Positions 4,647 through 59,568 of a stretch of DNA of 64,000 nt are shown here, one piece after another; within the stretch, counting starts at the first letter, position 1; every line of letters begins with the position of its first letter. A program made the position numbers and the translations under genes. This DNA is from Ureibacillus manganicus DSM 26584 (GTDB taxonomy: Bacteria > Bacillota > Bacilli > Bacillales_A > Planococcaceae). A model generated the notes under the pieces. The model was not told the DNA's origin. It made no database searches and saw nothing but the letters and a program-made list of their open reading frames with translations. Location of the stretch: positions 1 through 64,000 of the forward strand of contig NZ_JPVN01000006.1 in NCBI RefSeq assembly GCF_000772945.1, written 5' to 3'.

Positions 4647-4690
4647 GAGTCTCGTTCAGTATAAACTTGTTACAACTAAAATTTAATAAA

Positions 4691-4762
4691 ACACTCATAT
4701 AATGGCGGGGATATGGCTCGCAAGTTTCTACCGACTTACCGTAAATTAGTCGACTATGAGAG
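4691..4762 (+). ncRNA. Purine (guanine/xanthine class) riboswitch aptamer
   Basis: The P1 stem CTCATA (4694-4699) pairs with TATGAG (4755-4760). Inside are the conserved ATAATGGCGGGGATATGG, AGTTTCTACC, CCGTAAAT and GACTATGAG elements of the purine riboswitch family. The discriminating pyrimidine just before the 3' P1 strand is C (4754), which in this family specifies guanine, hypoxanthine or xanthine rather than adenine. It lies directly upstream of xpt-pbuX, the classic target. Ligand binding should favour the downstream terminator. Confidence 0.95.
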
Positions 4763-4770
4763 ACAATATA

Positions 4771-4796
4771 AATAGATAGTAGTTTTACTATCTATT
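4771..4796 (+). promoter_or_regulatory. Accessory hairpin in the riboswitch expression platform
   Basis: AATAGATAGTA (4771-4781) pairs perfectly over 11 bp with TACTATCTATT (4786-4796) around a GTTT loop. It sits between aptamer and terminator and overlaps neither. It may act as a folding spacer or pause element; that role is inferred. Confidence 0.6.
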
Positions 4797-4894: not shown

Positions 4895-6788
<1,894 letters not shown>

Positions 6789-7134: not shown

Positions 7135-8526
7135 TTATTCTGCGTTAGGATAAATCATTTTTTTCGGGTCTACATATTCTTTAAATTGTTCTTCTGTTAG
7201 TAGTCCGAGGGCTAGAGCTGCTTCTTTTAAAGTAGTTCCTTCTTTATGAGCCTTCTTAGCAATCTTAGCAGCATTTTCATAGCCGATATATGGATTAAGT
7301 GCTGTTACAAGCATTAATGAGTTTTCTAAATTTCTTTCTAACACTTCCATATTTGGTTCAATACCAACTGCACAGTGATCATTAAATGACTCCATTCCGT
7401 CTGCAAGTAAACGAGCAGATTGTAGGAAGTTATAGATGATTACCGGTTTAAATACGTTTAACTCAAAATTACCTTGGCTAGCTGCAAATGCAATTGTTGC
7501 ATCATTTCCCATTACTTGCGTAACAACCATTGTCAACGCTTCGGATTGAGTAGGATTTACTTTCCCTGGCATAATAGAACTTCCCGGCTCGTTTTCAGGA
7601 ATTGTAATTTCACCAATCCCACTTCGTGGACCGCTCGCTAACCAGCGTACATCGTTAGCAATTTTCATTAAATCCGCGGCCAGGGCTTTTAATGCTCCGT
7701 GTGCAGAAACCATTTCATCATGGCTTGTTAAAGCATGGAATTTGTTTTCGGAAGAAGTGAAAGTTTTACCTGTTAAATTGCTAATTTCTTCAGCAACCAT
7801 ATCTCCAAATTTAGGGTGAGCATTAATACCAGTACCCACAGCAGTACCACCAATTGCTAGTTCCTTTAAGAACTCAGTATTCAACTGAATCATTTTTTCG
7901 GATTTTACAAGCATATGGTGCCAACCACTGATTTCTTGGCCTAATGTTAATGGCGTAGCGTCTTGTAAATGAGTACGTCCAACTTTAATAATATCTTTAA
8001 AACTTTCCGATTTATCTTTTAATGTCTTTTTTAGTACCTGAAGACGAGGTAACAAGTAATCTTCAATTATTTCCACTGCCGCAACGTGTAAAGCAGTTGG
8101 GAAGGTATCATTTGAACTTTGTGATTTATTTACGTCATCATTAGGATGAATGCGTTCAGTAGAGCCTTGTTCTTCAAGTAGTTGATTTGCACGGTATGCA
8201 ATTACCTCGTTCACATTCATATTAGACTGTGTCCCACTACCCGTTTGCCATACAACAAGTGGGAAGTGTTCATCCCATTTACCATAAAGAACTTCATCCG
8301 CAGCTGTTACAATAGCATCTGCTTTTACAGGAGCAAGTTTACCTAAATTCTTGTTTGTAATAGCTGCTGCTTTTTTTAATGTTGCAAATGCGCGGATAAT
8401 TTCAATTGGCATTTTTTCTTGACCGATTTTGAAATTCTCTTTACTTCTTTGTGTTTGAGCACCCCAGATTTTATCCGCTGGTACGCGAACTTCACCTAAT
8501 GTGTCTTTTTCAATACGATAATCCAT
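7135..8526 (-). CDS. fumC: Fumarate hydratase, class II
   Basis: 463 aa, the usual length. Catalyses fumarate to malate in the TCA cycle in the cytosol as a homotetramer. The superfamily signature [11 protein letters not shown] lies at 315-325, the substrate-binding HPNDDVN at 127-133 and the [10 protein letters not shown] catalytic-histidine block at 183-192; SSENK is also present. Starts at an ATG with GGGGAG upstream and is monocistronic. Its stop is close to the right arm of the palindromic repeat, which may serve as its 3' end. Confidence 0.96.
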
Positions 8527-17697: not shown

Positions 17698-18900
17698 CTA
17701 CTTAAACTTTTTATAAGAATCTGCTTTTCTTTTAATCTTCTTTAAAGGAATTCCTTTATAGTAGTATTCCTTTGTATATTCGTATTTATCATTTTTATGA
17801 TTGTAACTTTCTTCCCAATGTTTTCTCCTATTGCAATTGCAAGTTGGTTTGTTTGGGTGATGTTTACTTTTGTTCAATTGATCGAACAAGTTATCAAGAT
17901 TTAATAGATTATGTTTATAAAGTAAAGATAGTACATCTGCTAACCAAATTTTGTCTGGCATTTCTGGTTCGTTTTTATGATTGTAATGTTGTTGCATTTC
18001 TTCCGAAGATGATGAATCTAACTCAAAATGGAAGTTTTTACGTTCATGACTTTTAAAATTTTCGTGTTTATTCATCTCTTTTTTAAAGTGATTGTATTCG
18101 TATTCAAAGCTAGAAGAAAAATCTGATAAAAAGTCTTCGTAGTGTTTAGATACTTTGGAAGAGTCTGGTTCTAATTCGAAATGGCGATATTTTTTTCCAG
18201 GTTCATTCTTCTTGCAATCACACTTATGCTTGGAAGAACTTTCATCATGCTTGTCGCCGTGTTTCCACCAGTCATGATTCTTTTTAGGGTGATTTTTACA
18301 TTTACACTCATGCTTAGAAGAACTTTCATCATGCTTGTCGTCGTGTTTCCACCAGTCATGATCCTTTTTAGGTTTGTTTTTGCATTTGCATTCATGTTTG
18401 GAAGAACTTTCATCATGTTTGTCGTCATGTTTCCACCAATCATGGCCTTTTTTAGGTTCGTTTTTACATTTAAATTCATGTTTGGAAGAACTCTCATCAT
18501 GCTTGTCGTCGTGTTTCCACCAATCATGGCCTTTTTTAGGTTCGTTTTTACATTTACATTCATGTTTGGAAGAACTCTCATCATGCTTGTTGTCGTGCTT
18601 CCACCATTCATATTTATCTTTATCTTTATCTTTATCATGATGATCCTTACACTTGCATTCATGCTGAGGGGCTTTAGGTTCTTTCTTCTCTAATTCAAAT
18701 TTATTAAATAAAGTGATTAAAAATAGGAATAAACTTTTCATAGTTTGTGGGTCAGCCATAAGACTAGAAAAATCAAAGTTATTGAAAATTGTTTTTTCTT
18801 CTGCTGGTTTTGCTACCGGTTTTGGATCAACTTTCTTTCTCTTACCGCATGAAGTGCAAAGTGTATGATCGTGGTGATTTGAGTGATAACTAGAACTCAT
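17698..18900 (-). CDS. His/Lys/Asp/Cys-rich repeat protein, possible spore-envelope or metal-binding protein
   Basis: 400 aa, extremely hydrophilic, no signal peptide. A Cys pair (CTSCGKRKK) lies at 15-23 and a hydrophobic helix at 52-69. Residues 98-238 form five tandem 28-residue repeats with consensus DWWKHDDKHDESSSKHECKC then KNEPKKGH. The rest is Glu/Tyr/Phe-rich with a second Cys pair (CNCNRRK) near 354. A strong AAAAGGAGGTG site precedes the ATG. Low-complexity, His/Lys-rich repeats like these are common in Bacillus spore coat and exosporium proteins, but no named family is recognised. Histidine, aspartate and CxC content suggests metal binding. Function is inference. Confidence 0.8.
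   Translation of the reverse strand: MSSSYHSNHHDHTLCTSCGKRKKVDPKPVAKPAEEKTIFNNFDFSSLMADPQTMKSLFLFLITLFNKFELEKKEPKAPQHECKCKDHHDKDKDKDKYEWWKHDNKHDESSSKHECKCKNEPKKGHDWWKHDDKHDESSSKHEFKCKNEPKKGHDWWKHDDKHDESSSKHECKCKNKPKKDHDWWKHDDKHDESSSKHECKCKNHPKKNHDWWKHGDKHDESSSKHKCDCKKNEPGKKYRHFELEPDSSKVSKHYEDFLSDFSSSFEYEYNHFKKEMNKHENFKSHERKNFHFELDSSSSEEMQQHYNHKNEPEMPDKIWLADVLSLLYKHNLLNLDNLFDQLNKSKHHPNKPTCNCNRRKHWEESYNHKNDKYEYTKEYYYKGIPLKKIKRKADSYKKFK
18187..18609 (-). repeat. Five in-frame 84-bp tandem repeats
   Basis: The units encode residues 98-125, 126-153, 154-181, 182-209 and 210-238 of the repeat protein. Units 2-4 are nearly identical in DNA; units 1 and 5 are more diverged, as expected for unequal exchange in the middle. 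The high identity leaves long open frames on the opposite strand that are not genes. Confidence 0.92.
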
Positions 18901-24790: not shown

Positions 24791-24966
24791 ATAAAACTTT
24801 TTATTATGTGTTTCTACTATAGTAAATTAATTGATTTTATATAATGCTTGATGTTATTATTTAGCTATTGTTTTTTTCAAATTATTCAATAATTTTTTTA
24901 GCTTTAAAACCTAGTTTTTACATAGGTATAACTGTTTTTAGTTTAGTAAAGTATGGAGTGTTGAAT

Positions 24967-26070
24967 GTGGCTATACTATTTAAAGAAAGTTTGAAAGAAT
25001 TAAAGTCTTATAAACCTGCAAAAATAATCCAAGACATAAAAGATGCTTATCAAATTAATAATGTAATTAAGTTAGCTGCAAATGAAAATACCTTTGGGGT
25101 TTCACCAAAAGCACTTGCTGCTCTTTCGGAAACGAATAATGATTTGTTTAGTTACCCTGATGGAAAGTCCCGTCTACTCCGTAAAAAATTATCACAATTG
25201 CAAGGTGTACCTGAAGAACGTTATTTCTTTGGAAATGGCTCCTTTGAAATTTTAGGCTTACTATCAAAAATTCTATTAGATGAAGGCGATGAGTCGATTG
25301 TTCAGGAAACAACCTTTGGATGGTATAAATCTGTAACAAAGATATCAGGAGGAAAAAATGTTATTGTTCCTCAAGAGAAATTAGAAAACAATCTACAAGG
25401 GATGCTAGATGCAATAACAGACCGTACAAAAGTGATTTGGATTTGCAATCCGAATAACCCAACCGGTAATTATATTACCCATGATGAATTGGAGGAATTT
25501 TTAAGTAAAGTCCCAAATCATATAGCTGTGGTTATTGATGAAGCATACGCTGAGTTTGCGACTAATGAAGATTTTCCTCGAACAAAGGAATTTATTAATC
25601 TCTACGATAATCTTATAGTATTACGAACTTTCTCTAAATTTTACGGTTTAGCTGGGATTCGTATCGGTTATGCAATTGCTGATCCGGCTGTTATTCATGA
25701 ATTGTTTAAAGTGAAAATGCCGCATAATGTAAATACATTAGCGCAAAGAGCAGCAGTGGCAGCATTAGAAGACGCCCGATTCCAAGAGCAGTGTCTTAGA
25801 AATAATACAGAAGGACGCAAATTTTATGAAGTGGCGTTTAAAGAGCGTGGCCTAGAATTTATCCCTTCATCCGCAAACTTTATTTTAGTAAATATTAATA
25901 ATAGTAGCCAACTTGTTTGTGAGGAATTACTGAAGCGCGGTGTATATATCCGACCTGGAGCAGAATTTGGTCTAGATCATTACGTAAGAATTTCTATTGG
26001 TAAGAAGGAAGACAATATAAAAGTTATTGAAACTCTATTTGCTGTATTAGATGAATTAGAACAACAATAA
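24967..26070 (+). CDS. hisC: Histidinol-phosphate aminotransferase-like enzyme
   Basis: 367 aa class-I/II PLP aminotransferase. KLAANENTFGVSP, NPNNPTGNYI, VIDEAYAEF and the Schiff-base lysine in RTFSKFYGLAGIRIGY are all present, as in HisC. An open frame extends back to 24868, but GGAG lies 8 nt before the GTG at 24967, and this start aligns with B. subtilis HisC. No other his gene is near; it heads the catabolic cluster, 93 bp before the hydroxy-acid oxidase. It may be a paralogue acting on another amino acid rather than in histidine synthesis. Confidence 0.85.
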   Translation: MAILFKESLKELKSYKPAKIIQDIKDAYQINNVIKLAANENTFGVSPKALAALSETNNDLFSYPDGKSRLLRKKLSQLQGVPEERYFFGNGSFEILGLLSKILLDEGDESIVQETTFGWYKSVTKISGGKNVIVPQEKLENNLQGMLDAITDRTKVIWICNPNNPTGNYITHDELEEFLSKVPNHIAVVIDEAYAEFATNEDFPRTKEFINLYDNLIVLRTFSKFYGLAGIRIGYAIADPAVIHELFKVKMPHNVNTLAQRAAVAALEDARFQEQCLRNNTEGRKFYEVAFKERGLEFIPSSANFILVNINNSSQLVCEELLKRGVYIRPGAEFGLDHYVRISIGKKEDNIKVIETLFAVLDELEQQ

Positions 26071-26163
26071 GTAGTCAATTTAGCGTAAGTAGTTTAAAAC
26101 CATTGCAAAAGTAAATAAAAATAAAACTAAGTTAGTTGGTATTATTTAAAGGGAGTCATTAGG

Positions 26164-27282
26164 ATGGTACAAAAATTTGATGAAAAAACTTTTCCATATT
26201 CATTCGAAGAATTGGAAAAAACTGCAGCAGATAATGTTTCTCCTGAAGCTTTTGATTATATACAATCTGGTAGTAGTACAGAACAAACATTACGATCTAA
26301 TGTTCAAGCATTTAGTAAATATGCATTTAAACCAAGAGTTTGTGTGGGTGCGAAAACTAATGACAGTGGGGTTACATTATTTGGTAGAAGTTACCCGTAT
26401 CCCATTCTTTTTGCGCCAATTGGTAACCAAAAAGTTGTCCATCCTGAAGGTGAGTTAGCTTCTGCACGCGCAGCAACTAGACTTCAGGTTCCATACATAG
26501 CAAGTACTGTTTCAAGTCATACAATTGAAGAAATAGCAGATGCAAGTGGCGATGGGGAAAGATGGTTTCAGTTGTATGCTACAAAAGATCAAGAAGTGAC
26601 TTATAGCTTATTAAAACGTGCAGAAAATGCTGGTTATACTGCGATTGTGTTAACAGTTGATATGGCATCAAGCTGGCGCATTAAGGATATGAGTAATCGA
26701 TTTTTACCATTTTCACGTGGGCAAAAACCGTATCCTTCCATCGTAAGTGATCCTGTATTCCAGGAAAAATACGGAGCTGCAGTTACTGAAAAAGGTTTAG
26801 AACCAACGATTCGTAGCATCTTTCCGAATCCTCAATTTTCATGGGAAGACCTTGCAGAGTTAAAAAAAGTAACAAAATTACCTGTAATCGTAAAAGGTAT
26901 ATTAGATGAAGAAGATGCATTAAAAGCAATTGAACATGGGGCTGACGGACTTGTAGTGTCAAACCATGGCGGACGTATGATTGATGGATGTATTCCATCG
27001 ATTGAAGCATTGCCAAGCATCGCAGAAGTAGTTAACAAGTGTATACCGATCTTTTTAGATAGCGGAATTCGTTCTGCAAAGGATATCTTCATCGCCCTAG
27101 CTTTAGGGGCAGATGCTGTATTGTTAGGTAGACCGTTCATCTATGGTTTGGCAGTTGCTGGTGAAGAAGGTGTTTATAAAGTGTTCGCTAATCATTTTGA
27201 GGAATTTAGACGTATGATGGTTCTATGTGGTACGAATACTATTGAAGACATAAAAAAACTAAAAATAGTAGAATTGAACTAA
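26164..27282 (+). CDS. FMN-dependent alpha-hydroxy acid oxidase/dehydrogenase
   Basis: 372 aa TIM-barrel flavoprotein of the lactate oxidase/glycolate oxidase/LldD family. FAPIGNQKVVHPEGE, the FQLYATKDQ strand, LTVDM, PVIVKG (flavin lysine) and the catalytic histidine in VSNHGGR are present, as is LLGRPFIYG. The usual RQLDG after the catalytic histidine reads RMIDG here, and the N-terminal GGA block reads SGSSTE, so substrate choice may differ from lactate. It lies between hisC and the lyase in the same orientation. The oxidised product could be a 2-oxo acid for the neighbouring aminotransferase. Confidence 0.88.
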   Translation: MVQKFDEKTFPYSFEELEKTAADNVSPEAFDYIQSGSSTEQTLRSNVQAFSKYAFKPRVCVGAKTNDSGVTLFGRSYPYPILFAPIGNQKVVHPEGELASARAATRLQVPYIASTVSSHTIEEIADASGDGERWFQLYATKDQEVTYSLLKRAENAGYTAIVLTVDMASSWRIKDMSNRFLPFSRGQKPYPSIVSDPVFQEKYGAAVTEKGLEPTIRSIFPNPQFSWEDLAELKKVTKLPVIVKGILDEEDALKAIEHGADGLVVSNHGGRMIDGCIPSIEALPSIAEVVNKCIPIFLDSGIRSAKDIFIALALGADAVLLGRPFIYGLAVAGEEGVYKVFANHFEEFRRMMVLCGTNTIEDIKKLKIVELN

Positions 27283-27351
27283 AATAAATAAGTTGATGTA
27301 ATTCCTAGTTTTCTGATAAGATAAATATAGAATTTTAAGGAGATTAATATT

Positions 27352-28722
27352 ATGCCATCCCATGTTATAGATATGATCATGTTAAAAAACAACTTTGGTA
27401 CAGAACAAATGCGCCAAGTTTGGTCAGATGAAAATCGTCTACAAAAACATTTTGACGTTGAAATAGCACTTGCAAAGGCTGAAGGCGAGCTAGGATTAAT
27501 TCCTAAAGAAGCAGCTCAGTTAATCGCACAAGCAAAAACAGATGACGTTAGCATAGAAGAACTTGCTGCAAATATGGCAAAAGTAAAGCATTCATTAATG
27601 CCTACTATTACTGCGTTACAGGAACGAAGCGGTGAAGGTGGAGAATTTGTTCACTATGGTGCAACAACACAGGACATCGTAGATACTGGAACAATGTTAC
27701 AGTTAAAGGAAGCGCATCAAATTATTCGTGCTGAATTGATTGATGTTGCGGCTGGATTAGCTAGATTAGCAAAAGAACATCGTTTAACTCCAATTGCAGG
27801 TCGTTCACACGGTATGCAAGGATTACCAACAACATTTGGTTTTAAAATGGCTGTCGTTTTAAGTGAGGTTCTTCGTCATTTAACACGTTTAGACGAAGTA
27901 AGTGGTCGAGTTTTTGTTGGGAATATTAGTGGAGCAGTTGGCACTTATGCATCATTTGGACCAGAGGGAATTGAAGTAGAAAAACGTTCATTAGAACTTT
28001 TAGGTTTAGGTGCTCCAGAAATCGTTTGGCATTCATCACGTGATCGTTTAGCTGAATACGCTAGCGTACTTGGTTTAATCAGCGGAACTCTTGGAAAACT
28101 TGGTAATGAGTTTTATAACTTAATGCGTACTGAGATCGATGAGATTGAAGAACCGTTTACAAAAGGTAAAGTAGGATCATCTACAATGCCACACAAACGT
28201 AATCCAGCGGCATTTGAAGGTATCGCAAGTTTGACTCGTCCAGTGCTACAAAATGTATCATTAATTCAACATTCATTAATTGTTGAACATGAACGAGATG
28301 CAATGTCATGGCGTGCAGAATGGATTGCGATGCCAGAAATATGTATTTACCTATCTTCACAACTAGCAAGTACAAAAGGTGTACTTGATGGGTTAATTGT
28401 TAAAAAGGAAAATATGTTAAGAAACCTAGATTTATTAGGTGGATTGCTACTATCTGAACGTGTAATGTTCGCGATTTCTGACAAGGCAGGAAAACAAACA
28501 GCACATCATATCATTTATGAATTATCTATGGCGTCCTTTGAAGAAAAAGTGCCATTTAAACAAAAATTAGCTGAAAATGAAACAGTGAAAGAATTGTTGT
28601 CTGAAGAAGAATTAAACGAACTATTCAATTACGAAACTTACTTAGGGTTGGCTCCGGAAAAGGTTGATGAAGTGTTAACCAACTATTATAATAGCCCATA
28701 TGCAAAAACAGAGGGGAAATAA
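27352..28722 (+). CDS. Fumarase/aspartase-superfamily lyase, candidate S-(2-succino)lyase
   Basis: 456 aa. The three conserved blocks are FVHYGATTQDIVDTG (C1), PIAGRSHGMQGLPTTFG (catalytic histidine, C2) and VGSSTMPHKRNP (serine loop, C3). The protein resembles adenylosuccinate lyase and carboxymuconate cycloisomerase. Enzymes of this fold release fumarate from N- or S-(1,2-dicarboxyethyl) compounds. No purine gene is nearby. It precedes a yxeL-to-yxeQ-like run in the place of the yxeK monooxygenase, so cleavage of S-(2-succino)cysteine or a similar adduct is the best inference. AAGGAG lies 9 nt before the ATG. Confidence 0.88.
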   Translation: MPSHVIDMIMLKNNFGTEQMRQVWSDENRLQKHFDVEIALAKAEGELGLIPKEAAQLIAQAKTDDVSIEELAANMAKVKHSLMPTITALQERSGEGGEFVHYGATTQDIVDTGTMLQLKEAHQIIRAELIDVAAGLARLAKEHRLTPIAGRSHGMQGLPTTFGFKMAVVLSEVLRHLTRLDEVSGRVFVGNISGAVGTYASFGPEGIEVEKRSLELLGLGAPEIVWHSSRDRLAEYASVLGLISGTLGKLGNEFYNLMRTEIDEIEEPFTKGKVGSSTMPHKRNPAAFEGIASLTRPVLQNVSLIQHSLIVEHERDAMSWRAEWIAMPEICIYLSSQLASTKGVLDGLIVKKENMLRNLDLLGGLLLSERVMFAISDKAGKQTAHHIIYELSMASFEEKVPFKQKLAENETVKELLSEEELNELFNYETYLGLAPEKVDEVLTNYYNSPYAKTEGK

Positions 28723-28723
28723 T

Positions 28724-29221
28724 ATGACATTTCATTTTCGACAAGCTACAGTCAATGACGCAAAAGCTTTACAAGAAATACTAGTGAAAGCTTATGCGGA
28801 AAACGGTAAATTAGGCATTAAGTTTGATGCGGTAAATGCGGATATTGAAATGACAACACGTCATTTGCAAAACAATATGTGTTTCTTTATGGAATATGAA
28901 GGAAATGTAGTCGCTACAATTTCACTACGAATGCCTTGGAGTCCTAACCCTGGACCGGAGAAGGTGCCGCATATTGGTTGGTTTGCAACAGATCCTGATA
29001 GTGGTCAAAAAGGTCTTGGGTCAAAACTTTTAACTTGGTTAGAAGAAGACGTATTGAAAAAGCAACTTAGAACACCTTTCGTAACATTAGGAACAGCAGA
29101 TAAGCACCCTTGGCTAATCCAAATGTATGAAAGAAAAGGATATCAAGTTTTCGGTCAAAAGGACCTAGGAAAAGGTCATATCACAATCTATATGAAAAAA
29201 GAATTTAACTTGGAGGATTAA
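28724..29221 (+). CDS. yxeL: GNAT N-acetyltransferase, YxeL-like
   Basis: 165 aa. The acetyl-CoA loop appears as DPDSGQKGLGSKLLTWLEE, following a strand around HIGWFATDP, as in GNAT enzymes. The ATG at 28724 has GAGGGG upstream and follows the lyase stop by one base; the in-frame extension to 28700 lies inside the lyase gene. In B. subtilis YxeL (SnaB) N-acetylates S-(2-succino)cysteine; position next to the transporter and M20 deacylase matches that operon. Specificity here is inferred. Confidence 0.85.
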   Translation: MTFHFRQATVNDAKALQEILVKAYAENGKLGIKFDAVNADIEMTTRHLQNNMCFFMEYEGNVVATISLRMPWSPNPGPEKVPHIGWFATDPDSGQKGLGSKLLTWLEEDVLKKQLRTPFVTLGTADKHPWLIQMYERKGYQVFGQKDLGKGHITIYMKKEFNLED

Positions 29222-29224
29222 CAA

Positions 29225-30028
29225 ATGAAAAAGATTTCATTTTTACTAATACTAACTTTAGTGGTTGGTATACTAGCGGCTTGCGGTGGCAATGAAGAAG
29301 GTACAACAAACGAAGGTTCAAATCAAACTGAAGAGAAAAAAGTAATCCGTGCTGGAGCAACAGGTGTAAGTTATCCAAATAGCTATAAAGAAAATGATAA
29401 ATTAATCGGTTTTGACGTAGAAGTATTAGAAATTGCAGCAGCAAATTTAGGATATGAAGTTCAATGGGTAAACTCTGATTTCAGTGGTTTACTAGGCCAA
29501 CTTGAAACTGGAAAAATCGATACAATTGCTAATGCTGTAGCAGTAACAGAAGAACGTAAAGGGAAATATGACTTTGCTGATCCATATTCTTATTTAGGTA
29601 TTACAATCGTTACTCATGAAGAAAACGATCAAATCAACTCATTAGAAGACTTAAAAGGTAAAACAGTATCAGGGGTATTAGGTTCAAATAACGTTAAAAA
29701 CTTAGAAGCATATGACAAAAATGGTGAAATTGGTATTCGTACGTACGAAACACGTGACGGTGCGATGAATGACGCTATTAACAAACGTGTTGATGGATAT
29801 GTAAATTCAAAACCAGCATTACTAGCGGAAATTAACAAAGGTAACTTGCCTTTAAAATTTGTTGGCGACCCATTTGTTTATGAAGCAGTTGCCTTCCCAT
29901 TCGTAAAAGGAACTAATGAAGAATTACGTGAAGCTCTTAGCGCAGAAGTGCAAAAATTACACGAAGATGGTACAATTACTGAGCTTTCAATCAAATACTT
30001 CGGTGAAGATGTTTCAAAGAAAGACTAA
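29225..30028 (+). CDS. yxeM: Amino-acid ABC transporter substrate-binding lipoprotein, YxeM-like
   Basis: 267 aa. Lipoprotein signal peptide with lipobox ILAAC (Cys about 20), then an acidic/Asn-rich linker and a family-3 solute-binding domain (IGFDVEVLEIAAANLGYEVQW, the EERKGKYDFADPY block). Binds an amino-acid-like ligand outside the membrane for the permease and ATPase downstream. Begins 3 bp after the GNAT stop. Two hairpins, one a strong terminator, separate it from the permease and should make this subunit more abundant. Confidence 0.92.
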   Translation: MKKISFLLILTLVVGILAACGGNEEGTTNEGSNQTEEKKVIRAGATGVSYPNSYKENDKLIGFDVEVLEIAAANLGYEVQWVNSDFSGLLGQLETGKIDTIANAVAVTEERKGKYDFADPYSYLGITIVTHEENDQINSLEDLKGKTVSGVLGSNNVKNLEAYDKNGEIGIRTYETRDGAMNDAINKRVDGYVNSKPALLAEINKGNLPLKFVGDPFVYEAVAFPFVKGTNEELREALSAEVQKLHEDGTITELSIKYFGEDVSKKD

Positions 30029-30073
30029 GTCAAGATTAGCTGATAGGTATTTATACATTTATCTAGCTGTTTA

Positions 30074-30114
30074 AGAAAAACACTAACTAAAAATGACTAA
30101 AGATGTGTTTTTCT
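30074..30114 (+). promoter_or_regulatory. Hairpin after the binding-protein gene
   Basis: AGAAAAACAC (30074-30083) pairs perfectly with GTGTTTTTCT (30105-30114). It lies between the yxeM-like gene and the terminator at 30127 and could protect the upstream mRNA 3' end. Confidence 0.6.
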
Positions 30115-30126
30115 AATAATATAAAT

Positions 30127-30169
30127 GGCCGTCTTAAAAGTAATAATACTTTTTAAGACGGCCTTTTTT
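30127..30169 (+). terminator. Strong intraoperonic intrinsic terminator
   Basis: GGCCGTCTTAAAA pairs perfectly over 13 bp with TTTTAAGACGGCC, then six T. It stands between the binding-protein gene and its own permease, so transcription of the permease, ATPase, deacylase and PrpD genes must read through or restart. Confidence 0.92.
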
Positions 30170-30200
30170 CACAATATAGAACAAGGAGATGATAATTGCG

Positions 30201-30872
30201 ATGAATTTTGACATAGGTTATATGTTTTCTCTTATTCCTGAAATAATGGAGTATATTCCAATCACATTATTTATGGCTATATTAGCTATGATTTTAACAA
30301 TCATCATTGGTTTATTATTAACTTTCATGCGTAGTAGTAAGCTGAAAGTATTAAATTATATAGCTACCGTATACATTTCATTCTTTCGAGCGATTCCGAT
30401 GCTCGTACAACTATTTTTAATTTACTATGGTTTACCCCAACTGTTCCCGGTGTTTACGAAAATGGACGCAGTTACTGCTGCAGTAATTGGTTTTGGGTTT
30501 AAACAAGCAGCTTTTGCATCAGAAATTTTCCGTGCTGCTTTTCTGTCTGTTGATAAAGGACAAATGGAAGCTTGTTTAGCAGGGGGAATGACAAAAGTTC
30601 AGGCGTATCAACGCGTGATCATTCCTCAAGCATTCCGAAATGCATTACCAGCTACGGGTAATACGTTCATCTCTTTAATTAAAGAAACATCGTTAGCATT
30701 TACATTAGGTGTAGTAGAACTATTTGCAGAAGCAAAAATGCAAGCTTCCAATACATTACGATTTTTTGAGGCATATTTAGCCGTTGCACTTGTATATTGG
30801 GCAATAGTAGTTATCTACTCATTCCTACAAAGTAAACTTGAACGTCTATTAGAGAAACCTTATCGGACATAA
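30201..30872 (+). CDS. yxeN: Amino-acid ABC transporter permease, YxeN-like
   Basis: 223 aa HisM-type permease with about five helices. YISFFRAIPMLVQLFLIYYGLPQ and the EAA loop EACLAGGMTKVQAYQRVIIPQAFRNALP, which docks on the ATPase, are clear. The ATG at 30201 has AAGGAG about 12 nt upstream; an in-frame ATG at 30189 directly abuts that site. Forms the membrane channel of the importer with the lipoprotein before it and the ATPase after it. Confidence 0.92.
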   Translation: MNFDIGYMFSLIPEIMEYIPITLFMAILAMILTIIIGLLLTFMRSSKLKVLNYIATVYISFFRAIPMLVQLFLIYYGLPQLFPVFTKMDAVTAAVIGFGFKQAAFASEIFRAAFLSVDKGQMEACLAGGMTKVQAYQRVIIPQAFRNALPATGNTFISLIKETSLAFTLGVVELFAEAKMQASNTLRFFEAYLAVALVYWAIVVIYSFLQSKLERLLEKPYRT

Positions 30873-30887
30873 GGAGTGTGAAAGAAT

Positions 30888-31628
30888 ATGATTAAAGTAA
30901 ACCAACTTAAAAAATCTTTTAATGATTTAGAAGTGCTAAAGGATATTAATTTTGAAGTAAAACGTGGAGAAGTTCTTTCCATTATCGGTCCATCTGGTTC
31001 TGGAAAATCAACATTATTACGTTGTTTAAACTTTTTGGAAACTCCAAATGCAGGAACAATAACAATTGATGGACTAACTGTTGATGTTGAAAATGTAAAA
31101 AAGCAGGATATTCAGCAACTAAGAAAGAAATCTGCGATGGTATTTCAAAACTACAATTTATTTAAAAATAAAACAGCATTACAAAATGTAACTGAATTAT
31201 TAATCGTTACAAAAAAAATGCCTAAAGCAGAGGCTGAAAAAATAGGAATGGAATATTTGGCACAAGTTGGTCTTGCAGATAAAGCAAACAAATATCCAGT
31301 AACGTTATCTGGAGGTCAACAACAACGTGTAAGTATTGCACGGGCATTAGCATTAAATCCAAGCGTTATATTATTTGACGAGCCAACTTCTTCCCTTGAC
31401 CCAGAGCTAGTATCGGAAGTTTTACAAGTTATAAAACAAATTTCTACGAAAGATACAACAATGATTATAGTTACACACGAAATGGATTTTGCTCGTGAGG
31501 TATCGGATAACGTTATTTTCATGGCAGATGGGTATATTGTCGAAGAAGGTCATCCAAGTCAATTGTTTGGTAATCCACAACAAGCTCGTACAAAATCGTT
31601 TATACAACAATTAAACGAAAAACATTAA
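30888..31628 (+). CDS. yxeO: Amino-acid ABC transporter ATP-binding protein, YxeO-like
   Basis: 246 aa. Walker A GPSGSGKST, Q-loop MVFQNYNLFKNKTALQN, signature LSGGQQQRVSIARALALNP and Walker B VILFDEPTSSLDPEL are all present, as in GlnQ/TcyN polar amino-acid importers. Starts 16 bp after the permease. Energises uptake of the cluster's substrate. Confidence 0.95.
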   Translation: MIKVNQLKKSFNDLEVLKDINFEVKRGEVLSIIGPSGSGKSTLLRCLNFLETPNAGTITIDGLTVDVENVKKQDIQQLRKKSAMVFQNYNLFKNKTALQNVTELLIVTKKMPKAEAEKIGMEYLAQVGLADKANKYPVTLSGGQQQRVSIARALALNPSVILFDEPTSSLDPELVSEVLQVIKQISTKDTTMIIVTHEMDFAREVSDNVIFMADGYIVEEGHPSQLFGNPQQARTKSFIQQLNEKH

Positions 31629-31648
31629 TGAAAGAAGGAAGTTGTACC

Positions 31649-32800
31649 ATGAGTACTACAGAAAACTTACAATCAAAACTTATTGCATATCGTCGTGAAT
31701 TACATGAAAATCCAGAATTAGGGTTTAAAGAAGTTGAAACTACAAAGCGAATTCGTCGCTGGTTAGAGGATGCAGGAATTACAATTCTAGATTATCCATT
31801 AGAAACAGGTCTTGTAGCAGAAGTTAAAGGTGAACTAGAAGGTCCAACAATTGCATTACGTGCAGATATTGATGCATTACCAATTGTCGAACAATCTGGC
31901 GTAGAGTTTTCCTCTAAAGTTGAAGGTGTGATGCATGCTTGTGGTCATGACTTCCATACTTCATCAATGATTGGAGCCGCTATTTTATTACAATCTAGAC
32001 GTTCGGAGCTAAAAGGAACGGTACGTATTATCTTCCAACCTGCCGAAGAAATTGCTCAAGGTGCAGTTTATGTTGCTGAACAAGGTGTATTAGATGGAGT
32101 ATCAGCCATCTTTGGAATGCACAACAAACCTGAACTACCAGTTGGAACAATCGGTGTACGTTCTGGCTCGTTAATGGCAAGTGTAGATCGTTTCGAATTA
32201 GATATTATTGGTGTCGGTGGTCATGCAGGAATTCCAAATGACGCTATAGATCCAATCGTTATTGCGAGTCAAATTGTATCTGCTTTCCAAAGTATCGTCA
32301 GCCGTAATATGGATCCATTCCATAACATTGTTGTTTCGGTAACAAAACTGCAAGCAGGAAATACATGGAATGTCATTCCTGAAAAAGCAGAACTTGAGGG
32401 TACGGTTCGTACGTTCCAAGAAGAAACGCGTGAAGTAATTTCTAATCGTATGCGCGCTATTGCTGAAGCAATTGCAGAAAGTTTTGGTGCACGTGCTGAT
32501 TTCAGATGGTTTTCATATTTGCCAGTAGTTAACAATGACAGTAGATTCACAGAAATCGCAGCTGAAGCAGCAACGAAAGCTGGATACCAAGCAATCGAAG
32601 CTCAACAAGTTCCTGCAGGTGAAGATTTTGCATTTTATCAAACAAAGATACCAGGCTATTTTGTATGGATGGGTGTAGATGGACCGAAAGCTTGGCACCA
32701 TCCTGAATTTACATTAAAAGAGGAAGCATTAGAAGTTGCTGCTAAGTATTTTGCTGAACTATCAATTCAAGCTCTTAATAAGCCGGAGCTACTTAAATGA
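31649..32800 (+). CDS. yxeP: M20 family amidohydrolase/deacylase, YxeP-like
   Basis: 383 aa from the ATG at 31649 (AAGGAAG 7 nt upstream); an in-frame ATG at 31628 overlaps the ATPase stop. Metal-binding motifs ADIDALPI, MHACGHDFHTSSM, QPAEE and the late AWHHPEF histidine match the aminoacylase/hippuricase M20D group. B. subtilis YxeP (SndB) deacetylates the N-acetylated product in succinocysteine disposal; the same role is inferred. Stop overlaps the next start by 4 bp (ATGA). Confidence 0.92.
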   Translation: MSTTENLQSKLIAYRRELHENPELGFKEVETTKRIRRWLEDAGITILDYPLETGLVAEVKGELEGPTIALRADIDALPIVEQSGVEFSSKVEGVMHACGHDFHTSSMIGAAILLQSRRSELKGTVRIIFQPAEEIAQGAVYVAEQGVLDGVSAIFGMHNKPELPVGTIGVRSGSLMASVDRFELDIIGVGGHAGIPNDAIDPIVIASQIVSAFQSIVSRNMDPFHNIVVSVTKLQAGNTWNVIPEKAELEGTVRTFQEETREVISNRMRAIAEAIAESFGARADFRWFSYLPVVNNDSRFTEIAAEAATKAGYQAIEAQQVPAGEDFAFYQTKIPGYFVWMGVDGPKAWHHPEFTLKEEALEVAAKYFAELSIQALNKPELLK

Positions 32801-34113
32801 AACTAACCGAAGAATTTGTCGGTAAAATATACAATGCAATCCCTACTGAAGAAGCAATTGAAAGTGCTAAATTAGGTGTTTTAGATTTCTTAACTTCGAG
32901 TTACGCTGGTAAGGATGATCCCGGAGTACTCAAGCTTCTTCAACTTATAGAACTTGAGGGTGGATTAGAGATAACGCCTCTAATTGGTCAAAGTCGAATG
33001 GCTACACCTCAACAATCTGCTTTAATCAATGGCTTTTTAGCCCATGCATTGGATTTTGATGATGTTCATGTCGAGGTACGTGGACATCCTAGTGCAGTTC
33101 TACTTCCAACTTTAATCGCATTAGCTTCAAACAATGAAGTTTCAGGGAAGCGCTTTTTACAAGCTTATGTGGTTGGAGTAGAAGTAATGGCTAGAATTGC
33201 TCGAGCAATTTCAGATCAGCATTATGAAAAGGGTTGGCACAATACAGGAACAATTGGTGTACTGGCCGGTGCACTAGCAGGGGGCTACATGCTTCAATTT
33301 TCTCGTAAACAACTTGCGCAGGCGCTTGGTTTTGCAACGACTCAATCAAGTGGATTACGTATTCATTTTGGAACAGAAACAAAACCACTTCATGCTGGAT
33401 TGGCTGCTCGAGCAGCAGTTCTAAGTGTTCAGATAACCATGGTTAACTTTTTAAACAATACGAGCAGCTTTGATGATAAAGGAAACTACTTTGATGTTTA
33501 TGGTGTTGGTACAGAAGGAATTTCATCCATTCTATTAGATGGATGGAATGAGGGGTGGAAAATCGATTCACCTGGATTGTGGTATAAAATTTACCCTTTT
33601 TGTTCAGCAGCTTTCTTCGGAGCGGATGCTGCATTACATATAGGAAAATTGAATTTGGATGAAATTAAAGAAGTAGTAATTACATTTTCAAACAATACCG
33701 ATGCTGCGTTAATTCATCGTCATCCTAAAACGGGTGAAGAAGGTCGTTTTAGTATCGAATATATTGTCTCGCTTATATTACAAGGTAAGTCATTAGATTT
33801 TCAACAATTCGATTCAAAACCAATTGATTCAGTATCCGAACAGCTAATATTAAAAACTGCAAGGCAAAACGTTAAAGAGCAACCTAGTATAGCTAGATAT
33901 ACAAAGGTAAAAGTAATATTAAACAATGGTGACATAATTGAAAAGGTTTCTACCACACCAAAAGGTTCACCTCAAAATAAAGTGACAAAACAGGAACTGA
34001 TTGATAAGTGTAAATCTATCGTTAAGAGTTGTGAGTTAGAAGATAAATGGCTAAATACAATATTTTCTTTAGATCAACATAAAAACATGTCGTCATTTTT
34101 ATCATTGCTGTAA
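32797..34113 (+). CDS. yxeQ: MmgE/PrpD family protein, YxeQ-like
   Basis: 438 aa. GFLAHALDFDDVHVEVRGHPSA near residues 74-96 and HNTGTIGVLAGALAGGYML are typical of the MmgE/PrpD family, which includes 2-methylcitrate dehydratase, cis-aconitate decarboxylase and iminodisuccinate epimerase. In this setting, epimerisation of a succinyl group before cleavage is a reasonable idea. Overlaps the deacylase by 4 bp and ends the operon at a terminator. Position matches YxeQ in B. subtilis. Confidence 0.9.
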   Translation: MKLTEEFVGKIYNAIPTEEAIESAKLGVLDFLTSSYAGKDDPGVLKLLQLIELEGGLEITPLIGQSRMATPQQSALINGFLAHALDFDDVHVEVRGHPSAVLLPTLIALASNNEVSGKRFLQAYVVGVEVMARIARAISDQHYEKGWHNTGTIGVLAGALAGGYMLQFSRKQLAQALGFATTQSSGLRIHFGTETKPLHAGLAARAAVLSVQITMVNFLNNTSSFDDKGNYFDVYGVGTEGISSILLDGWNEGWKIDSPGLWYKIYPFCSAAFFGADAALHIGKLNLDEIKEVVITFSNNTDAALIHRHPKTGEEGRFSIEYIVSLILQGKSLDFQQFDSKPIDSVSEQLILKTARQNVKEQPSIARYTKVKVILNNGDIIEKVSTTPKGSPQNKVTKQELIDKCKSIVKSCELEDKWLNTIFSLDQHKNMSSFLSLL

Positions 34114-34116
34114 CTA

Positions 34117-34149
34117 AAAGGGTGCAATCCATTTAGGATTGCACCCTTT
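34117..34149 (+). terminator. Intrinsic terminator closing the yxe-like cluster
   Basis: AAAGGGTGCAATCC pairs perfectly with GGATTGCACCCTTT (14 bp). T-rich on the right and A-rich on the left, so it can serve both this operon and the convergent uspA-like gene. Confidence 0.88.
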
Positions 34150-59146: not shown

Positions 59147-59568
59147 AACTGACCAAGCTATAAGGGAATAACAAACAAAAAACACCCTCACTTCAAAAAG
59201 TGAGGGTGCTTTAAAGCCTTGCTATACAATATGTATGGCAAAGCCGCCTTGCCGTAGTTATTAATAAAAAGTTTTAAACCACCACTCCTCAAAGTGGGTG
59301 TTCGCAGAAGCTATCCTGTATATCGTCATTCACCGCAGTGTGACGCTCGCCATTCCAACTTCGATTAAAACTCCCTATTACAGCTCAAAGGTTAAAACTT
59401 AATATTTGTACGAACAACGCAGCTTTAATGTTATATTAAACGATTCTTTTTATATGTGCAAGTAAGTACCTCCAAAGAAAAAAGTCAAATATTTAATATT
59501 GGTAAGTAATATAAAACGAAAAAATTTTTAAATAAAAAAGCCTTCCTGAATCGGAAAACTTTCTCGGT
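59147..59568. other. Non-coding tract between the repeat block and the HD gene
   Basis: 422 bp. Contains the perfect hairpin CACCCTCACTT/AAGTGAGGGTG (59183-59209, terminator-like), then GCCTTGCTATACAATATGTA and ACCACCACTCCTCAAAGTGGGTGTTCGCAG (59278-59307), whose CCACTC...GTGGG hairpin resembles the right end of IS200/IS605-type elements. No transposase or TnpB frame is present. Interpretation as an element remnant is weak. Confidence 0.4.

Follow-up and report, generated by a model that had tools for sequence, protein, structure and literature searches.

Layout of the locus

The window analysed here comprises 64,000 nt and carries, between positions 24967 and 34113, nine open reading frames, all on the plus strand and all uninterrupted, whose gene identities agree with the Pfam domains. 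The core block (27352-34113) encodes a lyase, a GNAT acetyltransferase, a binding protein, a permease, an ATPase, an M20 deacylase and a protein of the MmgE/PrpD family. From the GNAT gene onwards this is the complete set of YxeL, YxeMNO, YxeP and YxeQ counterparts, and the order matches that of the yxe operon, as the earlier note had stated. The order was read from the loci of Bacillus spizizenii (L071) and B. mojavensis (L067), not from B. subtilis 168, and in both of them YxeK lies ahead of the set. In this respect the locus resembles the B. subtilis yxeK-yxeQ (scm) operon, which relies on the O2-dependent flavin monooxygenase YxeK, whereas the window has a lyase.

The lyase gene (27352-28722), a predicted S-(2-succino) lyase (2SL) with the domains Lyase_1 and ADSL_C, occupies the slot of yxeK. 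It is followed by the YxeL/ScmL-like acetyltransferase (28724-29221), which shares 53-58% identity with the GNAT proteins at the yxeL position of nine Bacillus loci. Its listed start at 28700 would overlap the lyase gene, but position 28724, 1 nt past the lyase stop codon, offers an ATG with GAGGGG in front of it. The YxeM-like substrate-binding lipoprotein (29225-30028) has an SBP_bac_3 domain and its best NCBIfam match, below the cut-off, is a cystine-binding model. Domain models and locus position identify a YxeN-like permease (30189-30872) and a YxeO-like ATPase (30888-31628). The YxeP/ScmP-like M20 deacylase (31628-32800; 60-66% identity in the nine Bacillus loci) is predicted to deacetylate N-acetylcysteine, an activity taken from ScmP (PMC12757645), and the block closes with yxeQ (32797-34113) and a terminator-like hairpin of 14 pairs (34117-34149, plus strand) on its 3' side. 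Overlaps of a few bases, as described earlier for the whole row of genes, are confined to two junctions, ATPase/M20 with 1 nt and M20/MmgE with 4 nt; the lipoprotein and permease genes are separated by 160 nt.

Two further genes and a leader element precede the core block. A HisC-like aminotransferase gene (24967-26070, GTG start) lies upstream of the leader element (26118-26152, plus strand), and a gene for an FMN-dependent 2-hydroxy-acid oxidase (26164-27282), recognised by Pfam, sits between this element and the lyase gene. The open reading frame of the hisC-like gene also has an alternative TTG start further upstream, at 24868. Two relatives have a conserved copy of the leader element ahead of 2SL, with 97% identity over 35 nt (L035) and 85% over 33 nt (L034). 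A genome scan with its 19-nt core returned one exact site and four sites with three mismatches, thus five hits against five for the reversed-pattern control, and the idea that the element marks a regulon was dropped for this lack of excess.

The earlier note had treated hisC and the FMN oxidase as an attached module, and it is conceivable that they are working parts of an extended pathway acting on the released amino or hydroxy acid. We found no terminator-like site between the oxidase and 2SL genes, and the oxidase gene lies downstream of the element that precedes 2SL in relatives; co-transcription of oxidase and lyase is therefore likely. Against such a role stands the comparison of loci, in which the pair occurs in none of the 36 other YxeQ loci (1/37, the window alone) and is missing at the corresponding site in three relatives of the same genus that carry the cluster. 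Among 260 other genomes of the family, no homologue of the oxidase exceeded 50% identity and none of hisC was found at E<=1e-110. Besides, the products cysteine and fumarate require neither enzyme. Membership of these lineage-specific genes in the pathway, unsupported by the loci, the homologue searches and the leader comparison, is unlikely; they are probably a local insertion outside the conserved block.

Identity of the lyase

The replacement of yxeK by a lyase of the fumarase superfamily is a known arrangement. 2SL was discovered through such replacements; it is present in 27 out of 102 yxe loci and in most of these stands in for yxeK, it prefers the N-acetylated substrate, and two such enzymes were assayed (Hillmann et al. 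2022, PMC9706529). The present locus agrees with the 2SL-type yxe/scm loci of Enterococcus italicus and Dickeya dadantii in the lyase that stands for yxeK within the yxe set and in the logic of acetylation, cleavage and deacetylation. By published description rather than gene by gene, we saw no difference from these two within the conserved block; the window has the hisC and FMN oxidase genes in addition, upstream of this block. The earlier reading of an oxygen-independent cleavage that keeps the acetylation and deacylation steps is supported, and, in line with the note's statement that no monooxygenase is present, a YxeK homologue is absent from the genome at E<=1e-80. The proposed novelty of a “hybrid” route falls away: the lyase operon is not new but is the published 2SL pathway, which is hereby extended to Ureibacillus-type bacteria. 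Nor is there evidence that points to N-(dicarboxyethyl) amino acids being the substrate.

Could the lyase instead be a second adenylosuccinate lyase (PurB), in a cluster with only a superficial likeness to yxe? It scores 386.6 bits with the purB model TIGR00928, exceeding the cut-off of 326.2, and the Pantoea copies carry a purB annotation. However, the genome has a separate purB elsewhere that reaches 599 bits with this model, and the MIERY start and the stretch RHDVVAF of its own PurB are replaced by KNNFG and KHSLMPT in the window lyase. The fumarase-superfamily tree that the earlier note had proposed as a check (30 hand-picked rows) groups the lyase with 12 others, every one from a yxe locus, in a clade with 98/98 support and away from the genome's own PurB, which sits on a long branch and is unsure in its placement. 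Together with the yxe gene context, this makes the PurB identity extremely improbable, and we ruled it out; TIGR00928 evidently also accepts the 2SL sister group. XcbD, 3c8t and TAD1 fall outside the 2SL clade as well. XcbD, a 3-sulfopropionylcysteine synthase, is like 2SL a member of the lyase superfamily and, going by the name of its model, acts in cysteine thioether chemistry; the model NF052536 gives the second-best NCBIfam score for the window lyase (449 bits, below its cut-off of 600), and the only XcbD in the tree, that of Nocardioides JS614, was labelled from its neighbours. Assignment of the window lyase as 2SL was judged by clade and context, the assayed enzymes E6LDH5 and E0SKP1 being outside the comparison.

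Close homologues of the lyase (>=73% identity) occur in 6 of 261 genomes of the family, all six of which also have YxeQ. A seventh genome (G244) has YxeQ at >=46% identity and has lost 2SL and GNAT. In a class-level survey at E<=1e-120, a single genome out of 398 Bacilli was found to carry 2SL, namely that of the window itself. YxeK-family homologues with 49-52% identity, possibly including paralogues, lie elsewhere in four genomes that have or had 2SL (G244, G248, G038 and G060).

YxeQ as a candidate epimerase

YxeQ has been published as an MmgE/PrpD protein of unknown function. The survey of gene order in relatives, also suggested in the earlier note, showed that the core block recurs while the accessory genes do not. 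We collected 37 distinct YxeQ loci in genomes (>=37% identity: the window, three from the genome search and, out of 219 loci, 33 that ranked among the 80 best). Of these, 23 have 2SL, 12 have YxeK, two have neither and none has both, and on a thinned YxeQ tree the swap between 2SL and YxeK requires at least two changes. As YxeQ is kept across this swap although the C4 products of the two enzymes differ (fumarate and oxaloacetate, respectively), it should act on the shared substrate.

On plasmids, eight YxeQ loci were examined among 10 matches listed of 44 records (H28 and H32 not included). Six of them have the Arg/Glu pair described below and each of these six a YxeK-like gene; the two without the pair have neither YxeK nor 2SL. 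The plasmid survey of 2SL matched 74 records, of which nine among the 25 matches listed were examined. Not every 2SL locus includes YxeQ: of the five plasmid loci with at least 58% identity, the three examined (Niallia and two from Pantoea) have no YxeQ within 9 kb, although on the P. agglomerans plasmid a YxeQ-like gene lies in a different locus from 2SL. No YxeQ relative was found in viral contigs. In the Thermobacillus genome, a search without positive control detected no YxeK at E<=1e-20, and 2SL was searched for in the YxeQ locus. M20 homologues, none of them assignable, lie away from the Gilliamella clusters in all five genomes searched, with best identities of 41-47% per genome.

The earlier suggestion that the MmgE/PrpD protein might catalyse an epimerisation gains plausibility from its residues. 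His97 and Tyr143 are present in all 38 YxeQ rows, which represent 37 distinct genes (L037 and L095 are the same gene), and correspond to H99 and Y145, the two catalytic bases of iminodisuccinate (IDS) epimerase (PDB 2HP0/2HP3). These two residues are not specific to YxeQ, as His97 occurs in 49 of 49 and Tyr143 in 47 of 49 other family members, the latter count being inflated because part of this set was retrieved with the Tyr143-containing pattern HYEKGWH. Arg95 and Glu321, in contrast, are found in 38/38 YxeQ rows and in IDS epimerase, while among the other members (25-35% identity) Arg95 occurs in 0/49 and Glu321 in 2/49. From these alignments, we propose the Arg95/Glu321 pair as a candidate diagnostic feature of two-base isomerases of the IDS-epimerase type. 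IDS epimerase shares the MmgE/PrpD fold, both bases and this pair with YxeQ, but has 28% identity, uses an N-linked adduct and lies just outside the YxeQ clade, although a forced grouping was not rejected (p-AU 0.255; thinned trees of 58 and 48 rows with randomly chosen outer rows). A second relevant family member is (S)-(R)-methylsuccinate isomerase (PMC12290011), which, as proposed for YxeQ, uses a His/Tyr pair as two bases to invert a succinate substituted at C2; it differs in acting on free methylsuccinate and in its itaconate cluster context. A catalytic Tyr is the mark of the family's two known two-base isomerases (PMC12290011).

The modelled YxeQ fold (pLDDT 92) ranks B. subtilis “IRG1” (PDB 7BRA) first, followed by IDS epimerase and then cis-aconitate decarboxylases (CAD). 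7BRA was deposited and published as a cis-aconitate decarboxylase, shares 43% identity with the window YxeQ over the structural alignment and lies inside the YxeQ clade as sister of the B. spizizenii and B. inaquosorum proteins. This label and the family membership would fit a function of YxeQ as CAD (IRG1) or 2-methylcitrate dehydratase. We found no activity assay in the text of the structure paper, where the word “assay” is absent, and that paper itself notes a lack of conservation at two positions that matter in human IRG1. A phylogenetic study places the B. subtilis protein outside the decarboxylases and says that evidence for its activity was lacking (PMC12290011). Moreover, YxeQ does not have a CAD-type site lacking the second base: mouse CAD has Ile at the position of Tyr143 and neither Arg95 nor Glu321 in the alignment. 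The sequence match of YxeQ is E=2e-54 to IDS epimerase versus 5e-24 to CAD, and the gene context is one of S-(2-succino)cysteine (2SC) salvage. A decarboxylase or dehydratase is thus improbable. Alternatively, YxeQ may work at the succino C2 in another way, on a related thioether adduct or by a different enolate reaction. All characterised MmgE/PrpD members use a 1,4-dicarboxylate and transfer a proton at C2 (PMC12290011), which is in favour of such a reaction. Unsaturated diacids other than fumarate can alkylate thiols. Nothing specific speaks against it, but the Arg/Glu pair in common with IDS epimerase favours epimerisation, and we regard this alternative as possible but rather unlikely.

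Pathway and significance

Based on our data, the locus very probably serves the oxygen-independent salvage of 2SC through 2SL. The ABC importer would take up 2SC, the GNAT enzyme would acetylate it to N-acetyl-S-(2-succino)cysteine (2SNAC), 2SL would split 2SNAC into fumarate and N-acetylcysteine, and the M20 enzyme would release cysteine. The enzyme steps were demonstrated for the homologues YxeL, 2SL (PMC9706529) and ScmP (PMC12757645) from other organisms. To this, YxeQ would add a two-base epimerisation (His97/Tyr143) of the succino carbon in 2SC or 2SNAC, whereby both diastereomers of non-enzymatic succination could reach a stereospecific cleaving enzyme. Judged from residues, fold, trees and gene context, we lean modestly towards this function, and a lyase-type yxe (scm) operon for 2SC salvage with YxeQ as epimerase is, taken as a whole, a well-favoured best explanation.

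If 2SL and YxeK accept both diastereomers, no epimerase is needed. Neither PMC9706529 nor PMC12757645 mentions stereoselectivity of 2SL or YxeK; the former does not state the stereochemistry of its substrates, which were partly made with 2SL itself, and this would hide a stereochemical preference of 2SL. The further-reaching proposal, for which we see about an even chance, is that YxeQ is the first 2SC/2SNAC epimerase: the cleaving enzymes would take one diastereomer and the Arg95/Glu321 clade of MmgE/PrpD proteins, misfiled as bacterial IRG1, would rescue the other, partnered by a lyase or a flavin monooxygenase and possibly, as a third kind, by a SolA-like flavoprotein.

If YxeQ is an epimerase, the repair of succinated cysteine gains a stereochemical step, which we found discussed nowhere in the examined literature, the deposited structure 7BRA acquires a function, and succino-adduct epimerases become separable from the many unassigned MmgE/PrpD proteins. 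Most likely, the operon recovers fumarate-damaged cysteine without oxygen; the proposed flip of handedness by YxeQ would let all of the damaged molecule be repaired.

Lyase-type yxe operon

The window very probably carries a lyase-type operon for the salvage of S-(2-succino)cysteine (2SC), a kind known since 2022, with two lineage-specific genes ahead of it. ORF calls and domain searches define a seven-gene block on one strand (27352-34113, +), encoding in turn a class I lyase, a GNAT acetyltransferase, a substrate-binding lipoprotein, a permease, an ATPase, an M20 deacylase and an MmgE/PrpD protein (YxeQ), and a terminator scan placed a terminator-like hairpin after the last gene (34117-34149, +). 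The yxe gene order recognized in the earlier note is also found in the loci of B. spizizenii and B. mojavensis, headed there by the O2-dependent flavin monooxygenase YxeK. The lack of a monooxygenase could be confirmed as well, as no YxeK homologue was detected at E<=1e-80 in the genome (4.05 Mb, 81 contigs). The "hybrid" route suggested in the same note does exist, but it has already been published as the S-(2-succino) lyase (2SL) pathway: a survey of ~2000 genomes found 102 yxe loci (67 yxeK, 27 lyase, 3 both, 11 neither), named the lyase 2SL and placed it mostly, as in the window block, in the position of yxeK (Hillmann et al., 2022; PMC9706529). For fumarate release, two purified 2SLs strongly favoured the N-acetyl form (2SNAC) over 2SC, and a yxeK mutant was complemented by two 2SL genes (PMC9706529). 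ScmP (YxeP), the counterpart of the M20 deacylase, was shown in 2025 to deacetylate N-acetylcysteine and not 2SNAC (PMC12757645).

Indirect tests agree in predicting that the window lyase is a 2SL. In a tree built from 30 lyases chosen by hand, all 13 from yxe loci (Ureibacillus-type, Lysinibacillus-type, Niallia, Pantoea and Gilliamella) form one clade with 98/98 support, leaving outside the genome's own PurB, a Nocardioides XcbD-like lyase, the structural-genomics fumarate lyase 3c8t and trans-aconitate decarboxylase. Besides, the own purB, located elsewhere in the genome, reaches 599 bits in the profile search versus 386 for the window lyase, and the start motif and RHDVVAF stretch of PurB are replaced in the aligned window protein. 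Since the window 2SL gene (27352-28722, +) exceeds the cut-off of the purB model and the Pantoea 2SLs (L158, L170) are annotated as purB, there is a risk of misannotation.

Upstream genes, distribution and other features

The earlier note had also considered hisC (24967-26070, +) and the FMN oxidase gene (26164-27282, +) as pathway parts. This is unlikely: neither occurs within <=9 kb in the 36 other YxeQ loci, and no tie between the oxidase and 2SC was found. Both are lineage-specific; the 260 other family genomes contain no FMN oxidase homologue above 50% identity and no hisC homologue at E<=1e-110, and a second hisC-type gene of the same genome scores higher (366 vs 323 bits). In three same-genus relatives the S66 peptidase gene, which precedes hisC in the window, lies upstream of the block; a single membrane-protein gene separates the two in two of these relatives. 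DNA comparison revealed a 35-nt leader element upstream of 2SL in relative G248 (97% identity; G255 matches at 85% over 33 nt), whose window copy (26118-26152, +) stands directly before the oxidase gene. As similarity to the relatives returns at 27279, just 5' of 2SL, the former leader now encloses the oxidase gene and leaves hisC outside. The oxidase gene is probably co-transcribed with the block.

Within the family, the lyase was found at >=73% identity in 6 of 261 genomes, all of which also encode YxeQ at >=46% identity. The seventh genome with YxeQ belongs to Ureibacillus massiliensis (G244; loci L065/L033), the closest named relative carrying the cluster and a member of the window's genus. 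YxeQ, M20, ATPase and permease are retained there, lyase and GNAT are gone, and the binding protein is reduced to its C-terminal part, which represents a natural loss of 2SL and GNAT from the cluster.

Elsewhere in the window, RNA scans identified a purine riboswitch (4675-4776), behind which xpt- and pbuX-like genes were named by eye (4901-6788), and a 6S RNA gene (59237-59428, -). The window also encodes a low-complexity protein built on repeats of the KHDDKHDESSSKHECKCKN type (17698-18900, -) and has a class II fumarase-like gene, named by eye (7135-8526, -), which is probably an ordinary housekeeping gene.

Conservation of YxeQ

YxeQ was entered as "unknown function" in PMC9706529, and we found no published proposal for its role in a scope that left out the 2018 and 2021 yxe papers. 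A B. subtilis protein of this type, which falls inside the YxeQ clade of our tree, was crystallised under the name "IRG1" (7BRA; PMC7347537). That paper describes the active site as a complete match to iminodisuccinate (IDS) epimerase and notes the loss of two residues that matter in human IRG1; neither "assay" nor "measured" appears in its text. A 2025 study (PMC12290011), from which yxe is absent, states by phylogeny that this protein is no cis-aconitate decarboxylase and leaves its function undetermined; it shows that another MmgE/PrpD protein is a methylsuccinate isomerase, with a His/Tyr base pair of the same kind as in IDS epimerase, and locates the action of MmgE/PrpD enzymes at C2 of 1,4-dicarboxylates.

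Our comparison covers 37 distinct YxeQ genome loci (>=37% identity): the window, three from a genome search and 33 from the best 80 of 219. 2SL accompanies YxeQ in 23 loci, YxeK in 12, both in none and neither in two, and this label changes at least twice on the thinned YxeQ tree. Since YxeK yields oxaloacetate and 2SL fumarate, and YxeQ is kept through the swap, it should act on the substrate that both share. For an MmgE/PrpD enzyme of this pathway, the matching 1,4-dicarboxylate is the succino moiety carried by 2SC or by 2SNAC.

H97, Y143, H148, K196 and K264 (window numbering) are present in 38/38 aligned YxeQ rows, one gene being counted twice. The His/Tyr pair alone cannot discriminate YxeQ, because nearly all of an outer group of 49 other family members (25-35% identical to window YxeQ) has it, the Tyr count being partly raised by a search pattern containing that Tyr. 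R95 and E321 likewise occur in 38/38 rows and have equivalents in IDS epimerase, which also shares the His/Tyr pair; in the outer group R95 is found in 0/49 and E321 in 2/49. A follow-up test on 8 of 10 plasmid matches listed detected the R/E pair in six loci (Staphylococcus, Roseomonas, Azospirillum, Neorhizobium, Pantoea, Erwinia), all of which also contain a YxeK-like gene (48-56% identity); the two loci without the pair (four proteins) have neither YxeK nor 2SL. The Staphylococcus protein is near that of locus L094 and hence not an independent case, the Pantoea and Erwinia proteins (31-33% identity to window YxeQ) are as distant as the outer group, and the Neorhizobium gene is recorded in two separate pieces, one carrying R and the other E. 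In a second, thinned tree, with the Neorhizobium locus left out, the 23 R/E rows form one clade (100/100) with IDS epimerase just outside, and grouping this enzyme with the clade is not rejected (p-AU 0.255). The AlphaFold model of window YxeQ (pLDDT 92) ranks 7E9D/7BRA first, followed by IDS epimerase (E ~1e-26) and cis-aconitate decarboxylases (~1e-23).

Variant loci and a proposed role of YxeQ

The yxe-type locus of a Thermobacillus MAG (L074) has neither YxeK nor 2SL, and a search without positive control found no YxeK in that genome. An N-methyltryptophan-oxidase/SolA-like FAD enzyme (L074:11436-12587, -) adjoins its GNAT and M20 genes; it may be a third type of enzyme that cleaves 2SNAC, and is a candidate for this step in the 11/102 unexplained loci of PMC9706529. 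The Roseomonas, Azospirillum, Neorhizobium, Pantoea and Erwinia plasmids (L184, L185, L186, L188, L189) combine YxeQ-like and YxeK-like genes with an amino-acid ABC transporter, and no YxeL- (GNAT) or YxeP-like gene was detected within 5-6 kb; in L189 a gene annotated as GNAT is truncated at the locus edge. Perhaps they represent a reduced proteobacterial version without N-acetylation. Pantoea agglomerans plasmid p33.1_1 carries a YxeQ-less 2SL operon (L158) and, separately, the YxeK-like/YxeQ-like locus L188, and a Niallia taxi megaplasmid (L157) has 2SL and YxeK together and YxeQ absent within 9 kb. Alphaproteobacterial loci (L105, L108, L116, L190 and others) show three MmgE/PrpD genes adjoining an amino-acid ABC ATPase.

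The addition of thiols to fumarate lacks stereocontrol and gives two 2SC diastereomers, stereospecificity is a trait of this lyase superfamily, and in IDS breakdown an epimerase supplies a stereoselective lyase. YxeQ would have an analogous role here, inverting the configuration at the succino carbon of 2SC or 2SNAC, and R95 may grip the thiol-side carboxylate, of a type that IDS and 2SC possess and methylsuccinate does not. The published 2SL work examined contains no report on 2SL stereospecificity. None of the three 2SL loci examined on plasmids has YxeQ within 9 kb. The protein is therefore dispensable, which counts against the epimerase proposal; one of these three plasmids has a YxeQ-like gene elsewhere. 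The interest of the operon is that it puts the role of YxeQ within direct experimental reach.
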